A DNA stretch of 40,241 nt from an uncultured Flavobacteriales bacterium (GTDB taxonomy: Bacteria; Bacteroidota; Bacteroidia; Flavobacteriales_D; Sanyastnellaceae). Location of the stretch: assembly GCA_937881575.1 (NCBI GenBank), contig CALGEI010000195.1:1-40241 (forward strand), written 5' to 3'. Position 1 is the first letter of the stretch, and the number at the start of each line of letters is the position of its first letter. Position numbers and translations under genes: made by a program. Below the pieces are notes generated by a model, which saw only the letters and a list, made by a program, of their open reading frames with translations, was not told the origin of the DNA and ran no database searches. This document shows positions 12,385-18,409 of the stretch, piece by piece.

Positions 12385-12838
12385 TTAATCTGATGACGTG
12401 AACCCTTTAATTTCTCGCAGCACACTGCGCGCTAAAGATTGATCCGTGAAATCATGCAGTACCTGATTCGTCCCATCCGTTCGGTCCCAAACCAACTCCC
12501 ACGATTCAATCCCCACGTCATAGGCTCCTCGTCGGTTCATCAATGTTTCCTTTGTGTGGGCAAGCGTGAGATTAGCCATCTCGGGAAGCACGTGCCATCG
12601 GCCCCACCCGCGCCACATTCCCCCGAACACCCAGCCCGTTGTCGAACGGAATTTGCGTTCAGAAGCAGTCCATTGAACACCTGATCTCGCTGAAAAAAAA
12701 AAGAATGGCAGACAACAAAGCCAATGCCGCTAAGGCCCAGAAAGAATTCATAGAAGCAGCCCCTGTCAAGACCATCGAAATAACGCCTTGTGGCAAGCAC
12801 GACCAACTGACACCTTCATCCCAAACCTTGACATCCAT
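12385..12838 (-). pseudogene. Small membrane protein gene interrupted by a frameshift at a T10 tract
   Basis: An ATG at 12836-12838 follows the TonB receptor stop after 3 bases. Its frame gives MDVKVWDEGVSW... and a hydrophobic segment (about residues 18-50, ending SAILFFF) but ends at a TGA soon after a run of ten T (minus strand; 12693-12702 on the plus strand). In another frame, directly after that run, an uninterrupted protein-like sequence (SARSGVQWTASERKF ... GAYDVGIESWELVWD ... SLARSVLREIKGF) reaches a TAA at 12385. Removing one T joins them into about 150 aa: one N-terminal membrane helix plus a soluble tail. This could be a sequencing or assembly indel, a real mutation, slippage, or phase variation. 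I do not recognise the family. A GTG at 12628-12630 could alternatively start an 81-aa tail-only product. Confidence 0.5.
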
Positions 12839-12841
12839 GCA

Positions 12842-15259
12842 TCAAAGCTCGATGATAATCCCCAATGCAGGCAAAACAGCTCCGCTACTGGGATCGATGA
12901 CCCGTTGGTCATAGAAGCCTGGTTGAGTGACGGAAGGGACAGGTACGCCTGTCGAAGGATTCCGCACCACATCACTGAAGTTGGGCTGAGGAACGGCTGC
13001 GCCTGTTGCATTCTGCACTTCCATGAACACATCGAGCGACCACCGCTCAAAGAACCACTTCTTGTCAATCCGAATGTCCAACTGGTGGAATGCGCCATTC
13101 CGTTCTGAATTCAGTAAGCTGTAATCCAACAGAGGCCGACCGTAAAAATCCCAACTTTCAATGCTGTAAGACCCTGCATCCGTTGGCGTGTAGGGCAATC
13201 CTCCGCTGAAAAGCAAGCGCGTCCCAATTTCCCATCCATTCTCGAATTTCTTCCCCCCTGTCATGCTCAGGATATGGCGGTTGTCCCAGCTGCTCGGAAC
13301 AAATTCACCTGAGCCATCTTCAAATTCACTCCGTACAAAGGTGTAGGCCAACAGTCCATAAAAGCCTTTGTAAAGACGTTGTTGAAGCAGGAGTTCCGCC
13401 CCATATGACCTCCCCAATCCATCAAAGGTTACGGCTTCATTGCCCACCACACCAAAGTCTGCTCCCAAATTGGCCAAGGCCACCCCTTGCAATGAACTGA
13501 TCGGAGAGTTTTGATAGCCCTTGAAAAAGCCTTCCAAAGAGACCACGAAGTTCTTTTCACTGCCATCCCATTTTAAACCTGCAACCAATTGCCTGTTGTT
13601 CAGATAAGACGTCGAGTCTGTTGCATTGACACGCGCATCGTCGACTGCATACCCTAGGATGGTATAGGCTGGAAGTTGTGAATACATGCCGGCATTGGCA
13701 TTGAAGGTCCAGCCCGGAGCAAAGGCATAGCTCGCAGAAACCCGAGGGGACCACTGTTTCAATGGATTCACCAGCCCCGACGCCGCCGTCGAGCCATCGA
13801 TCCGCATCCCGGCTGACACCGTCAATCGCTCCTGCATCAATCGCCGATTGGCTTGAACAAACGCTCCGTATTTGTGTGCCTTAAAATCCGATTGGAAGGC
13901 AACCGACTCCAGTGCACCCGTGGCTGGGTTCAGTCGCTTTTCTGAAGTGCTGTTGTTGTATTTGGCATACTCGTACAACACACCATAGGTCGCCTCCATT
14001 CCTTCTTTCAGAAATAATTTCCGCTCTGCCCGGAACTTGTTCTCAATCTCTTGAGAGAGGTAATCCCGAATCAACGGGTTCTCTTCGTCATTGTCCAAGT
14101 GTTTGAAGGCGCGGTTGTTGAGCATGTTCCGACTCGCGACGAATGTCCATTTCCCGTTGTCTTGATACCGATCCCACTTCACGCCCTGCGTGTAGTTCCA
14201 TTGCCGTTGGATGTCCAACGCTCCCAAAATGGCCACTTGGTCAAGATAATTGTCTTGGGCGGAATCCTGTGCAATGCCCAAGTTCAGTTCGAAATTATCC
14301 AACGCCCCCAAACCAATGACGGTGATGGCGTTGCGGTCATCAGGACGCGCCGTCCACTTGAACTGGTAGTCATTGTAGATCGGCAAAAACGGCAGTCCGA
14401 TGGCCTCGAAAAGCAGCTGCAAATAGCTCCTGCGCATGCTCATGATGAGCGATGACTTTTCACCTGTTGGGCCTTCAAGGGTCAATCCCAGGTCGCTCGT
14501 GCCCACGACCATGTTGGCCGTCCATTCATCGGTCCGCGCCTCTTTGAAGCTGAATTCCATCACGGAGCTCAGTGCATTTCCGCGCGCTGCGGGAAAGGCT
14601 CCGGCATAGAAGTCGATGTTCTCAACCAAATCGACATTGATCATGCCCACTGGGCCTCCGCTCGCTCCCTGTGTCGCGAAGTGGTTGATGTTGGGGATTT
14701 CGATGCCATCGATGTAAAATCGGTTTTCATTGGGAGCTCCACCTCTTACTACAATGTCATTCCGAAAGCTGGGGATGGCGGCCACACCAGGCAACGTGCG
14801 AATCGCCCGGCTAATGTCCCGACCTCCTCCTGGATTTCGCTTGATTTCATTGGAACCCAAACTCCGGACGCTGAGCGGAGCTTCAGCTTGTGTTGCGCGA
14901 CGTGACCCTTGCACTTCTGCTTCAGCGATGGCAATCGTGGATGGCTTCATGACTACGCTGATTGCGGCGGGCCTCGATGGCGTAACCTCCACTTCGAAAA
15001 TGGTTACTGCGTCATAACCGACAAAACTGAATTGCACATTGTGCAGTCCTGTAGGAACCTGTGTCAATTCAAAAAGACCATCGAAATCCGTAGTCGACCC
15101 CGTAACCTCACCCTGCAAAACCACATTGGCGAAAGGTATTGGATCGTTGGTCATTGCATCCGTCACTTTTCCTCGAATCGCCCCCACAGATTGGGCCAAA
15201 ATTTCGGCTGAGAAGGCCACAACAGATAGAATCGTAAAAACCGAAAGAATGCGCTTCAT
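12842..15259 (-). CDS. TonB-dependent outer-membrane receptor with carboxypeptidase-regulatory-like domain
   Basis: Predicted 805 aa. Residues 1-23 form a signal peptide (ends ILAQ). Residues about 27-105 are a CarboxypepD_reg-like beta sandwich (IRGKVTDAMTNDPIPFANVVLQG, TTDFDGLFEL), a hallmark of Bacteroidota receptors. Residues about 130-235 form the plug (RDISRAIRTLPGV, DIVVRGGAPNENRFYIDGIEIP, GAFPAARGNALSSVMEF), and the remainder alternates aromatic beta strands of the barrel to the C-terminal GIIIEL. Such receptors import large or scarce ligands using TonB/ExbBD energy. No SusD partner is adjacent, so it is not a Sus-type polysaccharide pair; the ligand is unknown. A 12-base palindrome lies upstream at 15322-15333. 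The frameshifted membrane-protein frame starts just after its stop. Confidence 0.93.
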   Translation of the reverse strand: MKRILSVFTILSVVAFSAEILAQSVGAIRGKVTDAMTNDPIPFANVVLQGEVTGSTTDFDGLFELTQVPTGLHNVQFSFVGYDAVTIFEVEVTPSRPAAISVVMKPSTIAIAEAEVQGSRRATQAEAPLSVRSLGSNEIKRNPGGGRDISRAIRTLPGVAAIPSFRNDIVVRGGAPNENRFYIDGIEIPNINHFATQGASGGPVGMINVDLVENIDFYAGAFPAARGNALSSVMEFSFKEARTDEWTANMVVGTSDLGLTLEGPTGEKSSLIMSMRRSYLQLLFEAIGLPFLPIYNDYQFKWTARPDDRNAITVIGLGALDNFELNLGIAQDSAQDNYLDQVAILGALDIQRQWNYTQGVKWDRYQDNGKWTFVASRNMLNNRAFKHLDNDEENPLIRDYLSQEIENKFRAERKLFLKEGMEATYGVLYEYAKYNNSTSEKRLNPATGALESVAFQSDFKAHKYGAFVQANRRLMQERLTVSAGMRIDGSTAASGLVNPLKQWSPRVSASYAFAPGWTFNANAGMYSQLPAYTILGYAVDDARVNATDSTSYLNNRQLVAGLKWDGSEKNFVVSLEGFFKGYQNSPISSLQGVALANLGADFGVVGNEAVTFDGLGRSYGAELLLQQRLYKGFYGLLAYTFVRSEFEDGSGEFVPSSWDNRHILSMTGGKKFENGWEIGTRLLFSGGLPYTPTDAGSYSIESWDFYGRPLLDYSLLNSERNGAFHQLDIRIDKKWFFERWSLDVFMEVQNATGAAVPQPNFSDVVRNPSTGVPVPSVTQPGFYDQRVIDPSSGAVLPALGIIIEL

Positions 15260-15341: not shown

Positions 15342-17120
15342 CTAACCCAAATCCAAATCAAGTCGTTTTCTCAATGTGTCTAAGTGCGGGTTTTTGTCCA
15401 CAAAAACATCGTAGCGCTCGCGTTCTGTGAGGAATTGAGAGGAAACTTCCGCTTCCGCTGCAGCGGGGACTTGCAGGCTCAGTTCGATGAAGTCATTCTT
15501 CAATTCGGCTCTCAAGAATTCAAACAAAGGAACGCGTATTTCCTTCACCTGCTCTTCTTGCACCTTATTCAACAAATCAATCTGAATCGCCTCTCCTTCC
15601 ACCCCGACAGAACAGGCCAATAAGGTTGAGCTTAAGTTGAGCTTTTCCGCCTTCTCTTGGATCGCGGCGAATGCTTTCCAAACTTCCAATAGACGACCTG
15701 CATCGAAGGATTCACGAAGCTCAGGCTGAAACTCTTTTTTCTCCACCGGCACATTGACTTCAATGGCCTGAAGGGATTTTGGCTTCGCTATCGAAATCTT
15801 GCGCTTCTTCAATATGCCCACTTCAGTATTCGCAGTGCCCCGTTCTGGCTGCGCCAAAGCAGAAACTAAGAGACTGGCTGACCCGTCCGACTCAGGCTTT
15901 GATTCCTGAACTGACGGAGCCGACTCAGAAACAATCGTTGCGGACACGGATTGAGGTTCATTGCGTTTGACAGAGGGAGCCTCCGCCTGCTCAACCGAAC
16001 GACTTGCTCTCCAAGCATCCGCCTGGATCGCAATTAAGCTATTTTTTTTTTTGTCCACTCCTCGAAGGGAGCAGATTTGCATCAGCGTGAGTTCAACAAG
16101 CAACCTTTGATGGTTGCTCCCTCGGTATTGAACATCCGCTTGGTTCACATGATGCATGGCTTGAACCAAAAAGTGCAAATCCGTTTCTTGCGATTGCTCA
16201 ACAAATTGCCGTCTCAAATCGTCTGTGCCTTCCATTAGCTTCACGGTAGAAGCATCTTTGCTCACCATCAAATTGCGCAAATGAGCACCCAAGCCTGAAA
16301 TGAAATGGTGCGGGTCAAACCCTCTTGCCATGATGCCGTCGAGCACGAGCAATGCAGCAGCTACCTCTCCCGCTAGAGCACATCGAAGCACTTCAAAATA
16401 CGTCTGGTGATCAAGCACATGTAAATGCTCTGCTACAACTTCATAGGTCAGTTTCTTCCCAGCAAAGGCGACCAGTTGGTCAAATATACTGAGAGCGTCT
16501 CGCAACGCTCCGTCTGCTTTTACTGCCACTACGTGCAACGCCGACTCTTCAGCTTCGATTCCTTCTTTCGTACAAATGCCCTGCAAATGAGCCACCATAT
16601 CTGGGACCGTAATGCGGTGGAAATCAAAAATCTGACACCGCGACAAAATCGTAGGAAGGATCTTGTGCTTCTCTGTTGTGGCCAAGACAAAAACCGCATG
16701 AGGTGGCGGCTCTTCCAACGTCTTCAAAAAGGCATTGAAAGCCGCTTGTGACAACATGTGGACCTCGTCAATGATGTAAACCTTGTACTTGCCCCGCTGC
16801 GGCGGAATTCGCACTTGATCGACTATGGAGCGAATGTCTTCGACCTTATTGTTCGAGGCTGCGTCCAACTCAAATACATTGAAGGCATAATCCTCTCCTG
16901 CGTCGGCATCAAAATCATTGATAGCACGCGCAAAAATCCGTGCTGAAGTGGTTTTACCTACACCACGTGGCCCGCAAAACAAATAGGCTTGTGCGACTTG
17001 ATTCTGCTCGATGGCTTGTCGCAAGGTTCGCGTAATTCCTTCTTGTCCCACTACCGCATCCCACGCTTGTGGACGATATTTGAGAGCTGATACAGTGTAT
17101 GTGGCGTTGTTCGAATCCAT
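15342..17120 (-). CDS. dnaX: DNA polymerase III subunit tau (and probably gamma)
   Basis: Predicted 592 aa from the ATG at 17118-17120 (MDSNNATYTVSALKYRPQ); a longer frame adds 26 residues not typical of the family. It is the ATPase of the clamp loader. Walker A is GPRGVGKT at 50-57, Walker B IIDEVH at 116-121, sensor 1 near TTEKHK, and the arginine-finger motif SRC at 160-162. The short loop at 66-86 lacks the four cysteines of the usual zinc module. Domain III ends near residue 350 (LMQICSLRGVD); an A11 run then encodes Lys357-Lys359-Asn360, and the remaining 230 residues are the tau-specific region with a conserved C-terminal alpha-binding part. See the separate entry for the slippage site. 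It is divergent from rpsF. Confidence 0.96.
   Translation of the reverse strand: MDSNNATYTVSALKYRPQAWDAVVGQEGITRTLRQAIEQNQVAQAYLFCGPRGVGKTTSARIFARAINDFDADAGEDYAFNVFELDAASNNKVEDIRSIVDQVRIPPQRGKYKVYIIDEVHMLSQAAFNAFLKTLEEPPPHAVFVLATTEKHKILPTILSRCQIFDFHRITVPDMVAHLQGICTKEGIEAEESALHVVAVKADGALRDALSIFDQLVAFAGKKLTYEVVAEHLHVLDHQTYFEVLRCALAGEVAAALLVLDGIMARGFDPHHFISGLGAHLRNLMVSKDASTVKLMEGTDDLRRQFVEQSQETDLHFLVQAMHHVNQADVQYRGSNHQRLLVELTLMQICSLRGVDKKKNSLIAIQADAWRASRSVEQAEAPSVKRNEPQSVSATIVSESAPSVQESKPESDGSASLLVSALAQPERGTANTEVGILKKRKISIAKPKSLQAIEVNVPVEKKEFQPELRESFDAGRLLEVWKAFAAIQEKAEKLNLSSTLLACSVGVEGEAIQIDLLNKVQEEQVKEIRVPLFEFLRAELKNDFIELSLQVPAAAEAEVSSQFLTERERYDVFVDKNPHLDTLRKRLDLDLG
16042..16052 (-). promoter_or_regulatory. 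dnaX A11 slippery tract (likely tau/gamma switch)
   Basis: In the coding strand eleven consecutive A follow GAC (Asp356). Adding one A (or a -1 shift) gives a TAG immediately after the run; losing one A (or +1) gives Ile-Ala then TAA. Either event would end the protein at residue 360-361, just past the clamp-loader domains, the size of a gamma subunit. A purine-rich AGGAG lies 5 bases before the run, like the internal Shine-Dalgarno that stimulates E. coli dnaX frameshifting. Thermus dnaX uses a similar A run for transcriptional slippage. Confidence 0.65.
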
Positions 17121-17241
17121 GGTCGTAGTCTTTGCAAATATCGGCAGCCGTCCATGGCGAAGGACGTGGAGTTTTGAACAGAACACGAACAACTGCAAAG
17201 GGGAGCTGAATAAAATCCCTCGAAATCAGGGGGATGACTTA

Positions 17242-17299: not shown

Positions 17300-17668
17300 A
17301 TGAACCGTTACGAAACTGTTTTCATTATGACTCCCGTGCTATCTGCTGAGCAGGTGGCGGAAACAGTAGAGAAGTACCGTGCATACCTCAAGGACAATGG
17401 TGCTACCATTGATCATGAGGAATCATGGGGATTACGAAAATTGGCCTACCCCATTCAGAAGAAGTCCTCGGGCTTCTATCAACTGTTTGAGTTTGAGGCT
17501 GAGGCTCCTGTAATCCTGCCCTTCGAAACTGAATTCCGGAGAGACGAGCGCATCATCCGATTCCTATCGACTCGGATGGACAAGCATCACACTGTGTATG
17601 CTGAGTCACGCCGCAACAAGTCGAGCCAAGCCCCTACGGCTGCTCCTGAAACTGCCGAAGAGGCTTAA
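17300..17668 (+). CDS. rpsF: 30S ribosomal protein S6
   Basis: Predicted 122 aa. The start [15 protein letters not shown] and the internal [23 protein letters not shown] are diagnostic of S6, which binds 16S rRNA with S18 in the platform of the small subunit. The C-terminal tail after residue 100 is Ala/Thr/Glu-rich and variable. First gene of the rpsF-rpsR-rplI cluster, 19 bases before rpsR; the common single-stranded-DNA-binding gene between rpsF and rpsR of some phyla is absent, as is usual in Bacteroidota. Confidence 0.98.
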
Positions 17669-17687
17669 TTCTTAAAAAAGAATCACC

Positions 17688-17951
17688 ATGGCTGACAAGA
17701 ACGTCCGTTACCTGAACCCCATCAGCATTGACACCCAGAAGGAGAAGTACTGCCGCTTCAAGAAGAAAGGCATTAAGTACATCGACTACAAGGATGCTAG
17801 TTTTTTGTTGATGCTCTGCAACGAGCAGGGCAAAATTTTGCCTCGCCGATTGACAGGCACCTCTCTTAAGTACCAACGCAAAGTGGCTCAGGCCATTAAA
17901 AAAGCGCGTCACTTGGCTTTGATGCCTTATGTGGCTGACAACCTCCGATAA
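17688..17951 (+). CDS. rpsR: 30S ribosomal protein S18
   Basis: Predicted 87 aa. [15 protein letters not shown], then [33 protein letters not shown] is the conserved S18 core. It pairs with S6 on the small-subunit platform. Lies 11 bases before rplI in the same operon. Confidence 0.98.
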
Positions 17952-17962
17952 ACCCGACGATC

Positions 17963-18409
17963 ATGGATATCATTCTGAAGCAAGACGTCGAGCTACTTGG
18001 TAGCAAAAACGACATCGTCACCGTTAAGAGCGGTTACGCTCGCAATTTCTTGATCCCTCAAGGTATGGCTACAGCAGCTACTCCTTCCGCCCGGAAGATC
18101 GTAGCTGAAGTCATCAAGCAGCAGTCTCACAAAGCTGCTAAAGCAATGGAGCAAGCGCAAGTATTGGGTAAGTCATTGGAAGGCTTGAAGTTAAAAATCG
18201 GAGCGAAGGCAGGCGAAAGCGGCAAGATATTCGGTTCCGTCAATTCCATTCAATTGGCCGAAGCCATCCAGGCTGCTGGTCATCAAATTGATCGTAAGCT
18301 GATTCACTTATCTGACGATAGCATCAAAGAACTCGGTTCTTACGAAGCAACGATCAAGTTGCACAAAGAGGTTGTCGTGACAGTAAGCTTTGATGTTGTA
18401 GCTGACTAA
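17963..18409 (+). CDS. rplI: 50S ribosomal protein L9
   Basis: Predicted 148 aa, the standard length. MDIILKQDVELLGSKNDIVTVKSGYARNFLIPQGMA is the N-terminal 23S rRNA-binding domain; a charged central helix (about 45-75) connects to the C-terminal domain (KIGAKAGESGKIFGSVNSIQLAEAI ... GSYEATIKLHKEVVVTVSFDVV). L9 binds near the L1 stalk. Last gene of the operon, followed by a strong terminator. Confidence 0.98.
   Translation: MDIILKQDVELLGSKNDIVTVKSGYARNFLIPQGMATAATPSARKIVAEVIKQQSHKAAKAMEQAQVLGKSLEGLKLKIGAKAGESGKIFGSVNSIQLAEAIQAAGHQIDRKLIHLSDDSIKELGSYEATIKLHKEVVVTVSFDVVAD

Follow-up and report, generated by a model that had tools for sequence, protein, structure and literature searches.

A long A run in dnaX of Bacteroidota as a probable transcriptional-slippage switch between tau and gamma

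We propose that a run of 11 A's (A11) in the dnaX gene of the window (the whole 40,241-nucleotide stretch that was analysed, from an uncultured Flavobacteriales bacterium) is a programmed transcriptional-slippage site from which both tau and gamma are made. We assign this reading a probability of roughly 0.77, a figure that overlaps with an alternative in which slippage and, to a minor extent in the window's own clade, ribosomal −1 frameshifting both act. RNA polymerase would add or drop A's on the T11 template in a share of the dnaX mRNAs. Those whose A number is 11, or differs from 11 by a multiple of three, would yield the 592-residue tau, and all others would reach TAG or TAA within three codons and yield a gamma of roughly 360 residues, with the ratio of the two products and a function for gamma being presumed. 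The run would be kept over Bacteroidota (a lineage assignment taken from named matches), and probably over sister lineages, because both products arise whatever frame the DNA is in, and single-base indels could swap the templated product while losing neither. Comparison of dnaX loci strongly supports the tau/gamma switch suggested in the initial annotation of this DNA: over a phylum-wide sample we repeatedly find the run itself, the closure of both wrong frames and a reversed default product.

Results

The dnaX gene lies on the minus strand at 15342–17120, where a 592-codon tau open reading frame begins with ATG at 17120 (the ORF lister's first start is a TTG at 17198). Its product matches TIGR02397 with 382.8 bits (cut-off 250), the model being covered end to end and ending at 16071, as well as the Pfam DnaX domains. 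On re-reading the sequence, A11 was found at 16042–16052 (minus), comprising the codons of Lys357–359 and the first two bases of Asn360, and the Pfam domain III match (28.3 bits, cut-off 24.4) ends at residue 357, in agreement with the initial placement of the run at the end of clamp-loader domain III (Asp356). Residues 1–356 (16053–17120, minus), delimited by the TIGR02397 and Pfam domains and the translation, are common to tau and the predicted gamma. Around the run the minus strand reads CGA GGA GTG GAC AAA AAA AAA AAT AGC TTA ATT (T11 on the plus strand), in the frame Asp356, Lys357–359, Asn360. One extra A gives K357–K360 followed at once by TAG (16039–16041, minus), a stop that a ribosomal −1 shift would also reach and that would end gamma at residue 360. 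One A fewer gives KKK-Ile-Ala-TAA (ATA GCT TAA; TAA at 16034–16036, minus), with the product ending at residue 361. The two non-tau frames therefore stop after 0 and 2 codons, just as first described, and full-length tau is in the templated frame, its specific tail (15345–16041, minus) including the type of C-terminal region used here to locate the tau frame in relatives. The AGGAG noted 5 nt upstream of A11 was located at 16058–16062 (minus), a Shine–Dalgarno (SD)-like motif with a putative role. Downstream, the stretch at 15960–16039 (minus) is more stably folded than shuffled versions of itself (z = −2.63; 3 of 200 shuffles equal it), and a hairpin lies near 16010–16027. Beside dnaX, rpsF, rpsR and rplI (bS6, bS18 and bL9; 17300–18409, plus) are divergent from it, and a TonB-dependent receptor with an N-terminal carboxypeptidase-regulatory-like domain (12845–15259, minus) lies downstream on the same strand.

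Relatives were collected in four sets totalling 335 loci, or 333 after removal of duplicates (83 family, 155 class, 78 named and 17 outgroup). For the family, 88 genomes at least 80% complete were searched and 83 matched; the matches in G065 and G070 fell short of the site and were left out, and two genus members of lower completeness bring the set to 83 loci. For the class, 149 genomes were drawn and 146 matched, all of which were included (G000 and G058 are counted with the family), and 11 extra class members brought the set to 155. The named set is the best 80 of at least 594 matches, less two exact duplicates of class loci. Outside the class 87 genomes matched, and 17 loci entered the statistics (15 family codes, one represented three times); 19 further outgroup loci, hand-picked from 28 genomes with two family codes, many for their short open frames, were kept out of them. 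The run was taken as the longest stretch of A's within the 330 nt that follow the domain III landmark, so that in run-less loci the 'site' is some short A stretch chosen arbitrarily.

A run of at least nine A's follows domain III within 330 nt in 291 of the 333 loci, with length 10 the commonest, whereas no locus has a run of exactly 8 and the remaining 42 have 7 or fewer. By set it is present in 83/83 family, 134/155 class and 6/17 outgroup loci, and in 68/78 of the named set (from the best 80 of at least 594 matches). An alignment of relatives had been suggested as a check on the conservation of run and stops, and the family bears it out for the run: all 83 loci, over 19 genera, carry A10 (71) or A11 (12). 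The site is reached in dnaX of 19 of the 22 genomes of the window's genus, four with A11 and fifteen with A10. AAG codons in relatives had been named as evidence against the switch, and 14 of these 19 loci do write AAA AAA AAG; the preceding codon ends in AA, however, and A10 is kept nonetheless. The 19 hand-picked outgroup loci, which we infer to be Chlorobi-like, carry A9 (2) or A10 (17); a zero-frame stop falls 29–43 codons after the landmark in 14 of them, and five stay open for at least 256 codons. Several named run-less loci are from gut or rumen Bacteroidales. In L172, L173, L180, L182, L199, L210 and other run-less loci the placed tau tails are single-frame, and these may be lineages that make tau only.

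Such runs are rare elsewhere. The 2.59 Mb genome of the window has eight A/T runs of at least 10, two of length 11 and six of length 10, and only the dnaX run is clearly intragenic; the other seven, placed by eye from the covering open reading frames, are intergenic or upstream of a likely start. We thus rejected the genome's other A≥10 runs as additional slippage genes, none being clearly inside a gene. The A10 at 12693–12702 (plus) of the window is in no convincing gene, since the covering open frames have only 112–114 codons, and another A10 (L131; G000 C135) is just upstream of the apparent start of what we take, from its peptide, to be carB. An A9 in the same genome (L117; G000 C63) follows closely on a signal-like segment inside a long open frame. 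In the rest of dnaX over the 333 loci, the N-terminal part holds one A9 and nothing longer in 341,739 bases, and the tails hold six A9 and two A10 in 204,771 bases. Among loci with an N-terminal GC content above 55%, 27/35 carry the run; lysine in these 35 is written with 83 AAA versus 274 AAG codons, so AAG is preferred. The dnaX run is not due to chance. A lysine stretch would be tolerable after domain III and 42 of 333 relatives do without the run, so that one might take it for a coincidental lysine-rich linker in a gene that makes tau only. Runs in AAG-preferring, GC-rich genomes, the lack of length 8 and the double stops and frame-shifted tails described below make this the least credible of the explanations, and we give it almost no weight.

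In 193 of 279 run-bearing loci both non-tau frames stop within five codons (family 49/78, class plus outgroup 99/136, named 45/65, the last a best-match sample). At control positions in the tails, double stops within this distance occur in 8.1, 12.0 and 12.5% of cases (family, class plus outgroup, named), and after control A6–A8 runs elsewhere in the same genes in 40/341 and 16/202. The frequency persists after thinning to below 75% identity (70/100), and a wrong frame stays open for more than 20 codons in four run-bearing loci. Run-less loci, scored at their longest short A run, have double stops in 1/35, and at fixed places 48–60 nt past the landmark both frames stop within eight codons in 19% of them, like the background. 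A ribosomal −1 shift alone needs one stop, and the close stops in a frame that such a shift never enters thus point to RNA-polymerase slippage.

The tau tail was located with a profile of the tau C-terminus built from 215 seeds, which found it in 317 of 335 loci; with placement at E below 3e-4 and duplicates removed, 280 run-bearing loci have a placed tail. It is in the frame of the N-terminal part in 183, in the frame reached by one extra A (or a ribosomal −1 shift) in 78, and in that reached by one A fewer in 19. Except in L186, the tail frame can be followed without a stop back to the run, which leaves 279 loci divided 183, 77 and 19. In 96 of 279 run-bearing genes tau is therefore encoded in another frame and the default product is gamma, in contrast to 0 of 35 run-less loci with a shifted tail. 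The run itself starts in codon phases 0, 1 and 2 in 23, 50 and 10 of the 83 family loci, and all three phases are used among the sampled loci. The tau peptide continues directly after the run in frame 0 in Aquimarina mytili (NDQPYIIPPSYF), and the shifted peptides of Aquimarina sp. RZ0 (GQHYIIPPDYF) and Flavobacterium quisquiliarum (VEQFIIPPVYF) line up from the run. Within the window's genus, NSLIAIQADAW of the window (frame 0) corresponds to HSLIPIVAEAW of G014 (shifted), where A10-CATAG gives a default product ending in KKKT and tau needs one A fewer; this reversal within the genus comes from one genome, in 200 contigs. Several shifted-tail loci belong to named strains, so errors in metagenome-assembled genomes do not explain all of them.

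A single FastTree tree, built from the dnaX N-terminal domains, requires at least 39 changes of the three-state tau frame (mean 87 with shuffled labels), six of these within the family, and at least 36 changes between shifted and unshifted tau. Run presence changes 22 times over all rows and 18 times among rows with a placed tail, gains and losses pooled. Tree-controlled comparisons of nine well-supported pairs gave a median p of 0.06 for the run with double stops and 0.5 for the run with shifted tau; these weak tests indicate that shared ancestry accounts for part of the raw counts.

Long runs of a single nucleotide mutate readily, and both run length and frame vary between species, which could reflect phase variation at the DNA level: replication slippage would mutate the run and a population would mix tau-on and tau-off alleles. 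dnaX is, however, expected to be essential, and cells unable to make one of the products should be lost unless the frame is corrected during expression. The sharp peak of lengths at 10–11 and the stops in both wrong frames speak against it too, and we regard phase variation as very improbable.

The more serious alternative is an E. coli-type ribosomal −1 shift at A_AAA_AAT (A_AAA_AAG in a sister clade), aided by AGGAG and the hairpin, in which a homogeneous mRNA would be read to the TAG to give gamma. SD-like 4-mers do precede the run in 86/291 loci versus 10.3% in controls. In the family the figure is 57% of 83 versus 14% in control windows, in the named set 26% of 68 versus 9% (a best-match sample) and in the class/phylum set 15% of 140 versus 9%. 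The motif is found in 17/19 genus loci, where a −1 shift would lead to a stop within 0–1 codons in 18/19 and within 3 in G014. The E. coli heptamer A_AAA_AAG is missing from the window, whose run ends A_AAA_AAT, but occurs in 14/19 genus loci, and G follows the run in 82/148 loci of the most frequent layout (phase 1, A10), giving the heptamer. The window's downstream fold is a further point in favour of the ribosomal shift. Yet the motif is absent from 10/19 family genera, and it is present in 11/13 family loci with tau frame 1, where the opposite direction is needed; we thus rejected SD dependence as the main mechanism, the motif being enriched yet not tracking the −1 direction. A general downstream stem-loop was also rejected: the fold is present in the window, but relatives show only a slight shift (mean z −0.41 versus −0.19 in controls, 280 each; z below −2 in 8.6% versus 5.4%).

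The ribosome itself bears on this question. In Bacteroidia, ribosomes are reported not to recognise the SD, with bS21, bS18 and bS6 holding the anti-SD (PMC9976891); bS6 and bS18, two of these three proteins, are encoded beside dnaX in the window. SD-bearing prfB frameshift sites are nevertheless described as common in Bacteroidia (523/726), and the authors of that study suppose that a ribosome pause lets the anti-SD pair there (PMC8710568), which would leave room for SD action in elongation. The efficiency of the prfB frameshift in F. johnsoniae is said to be low (PMC12421855), and prfB of the window genome, inspected by eye, has no frameshift site and reads through. The Chryseobacterium clade, with a reportedly altered anti-SD and no prfB shift (PMC8710568), keeps the run in the loci seen (A10 in L170 and L189, A11 in L188). 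The initial annotation had regarded the run as an unusual blend of E. coli and Thermus features, a reading that the comparison supports weakly. What stands of this is that AGGAG and the fold are both present in the window and that the motif is enriched; the run and double stops are general, and the SD part is weakened by its absence from 10 of the 19 family genera and by the reportedly SD-blind ribosomes.

Runs of nine or more without any of eight suit polymerase slippage, as a ribosomal heptamer needs only 6–7 A's. Whatever its phase, a run of at least 10 contains a shifty heptamer, so that freedom of phase by itself is compatible with ribosomal shifting, and 77 of the 96 shifted tails could also be reached by a ribosomal −1 shift. 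The other 19 of 279, in which tau needs one A fewer, are left unexplained by it, and two-directional shifts among homologues were used as a criterion for transcriptional realignment by Antonov and co-workers in 2013 (PMC3711429). RNA-polymerase slippage accounts for the length threshold, phase freedom, both directions and both stops, and the comparison points to this Thermus-type process, rather than an SD-stimulated ribosomal −1 shift, as the main mechanism. Ribosomal shifting on its own seems to us unlikely. A little less so, but still doubtful, is that both act, ribosomal −1 shifting adding gamma to an ancient transcriptional slippage in the window's genus: the arguments for each would then apply, and motif and fold do coincide in the window, but SD-like motifs are equally common where tau needs the opposite direction.

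Discussion

We lean, by a modest margin over even odds, towards a poly-A slippage switch in dnaX that goes back to the common ancestor of Bacteroidota and their sister lineages and acts as a frame-randomiser. Slippage would refill all three frames, so indels would be nearly neutral and the tau/gamma default could have been flipped dozens of times (the count of at least 36 above); the 18–22 changes in run presence would point to lineages in which tau may be the sole product, several gut Bacteroidales among them. The role of gamma has long been disputed (PMC5009743), and a switch kept over a phylum-wide sample through frame flips would argue that the short clamp-loader subunit matters, with run-less lineages as natural controls. 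If so, dnaX genes whose tail lies in a different frame may have been annotated as broken or as gamma-length genes. It also makes a testable claim on RNA-polymerase slippage in organisms whose ribosomes are reportedly SD-blind.

Transcriptional slippage in Thermus thermophilus dnaX was reportedly described by Larsen in 2000. Thermus slips on A9 (PMC1088944, PMC5009743), and the Thermus-type feature of a homopolymer of at least nine A's in dnaX is found in the window as A11. In both systems dnaX has an A run with stops close by in both other frames, and tau corresponds to the templated number of A's or to that number plus multiples of three. Unlike Thermus, the window has A11 with an SD-like motif and a fold nearby, and slippage, demonstrated in Thermus, is inferred here.

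Antonov and co-workers (GeneTack) listed 17 two-ORF dnaX genes from 12 genera, nine of them with 10 A's, in which tau is made by recoding, and proposed transcriptional realignment (PMC3711429). G014 and 95 other run-bearing loci have this two-frame layout, whereas the window is single-ORF with tau in frame 0. Their 17 genes shift one way and the present loci shift both ways, and the two collections may overlap in lineage. In our literature search, confined mostly to open-access papers, we recognised no report of dnaX slippage across Bacteroidota, the GeneTack study being the nearest; within the scope of that search, four points are new: how far the run extends over the phylum, the missing length 8, the close double stops and the count of frame flips.

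As in E. coli dnaX, gamma would arise from a stop met soon after an A-rich site that is preceded by an SD-like motif and followed by a fold (PMC5009743, PMC3711429). In contrast to the A_AAA_AAG of E. coli, the window has A11-T, and its relatives show a length threshold and both directions in a class where the SD is reported to be unrecognised. A 2016 review points out that the two dnaX products can exchange roles through a change of one base (PMC5009743).
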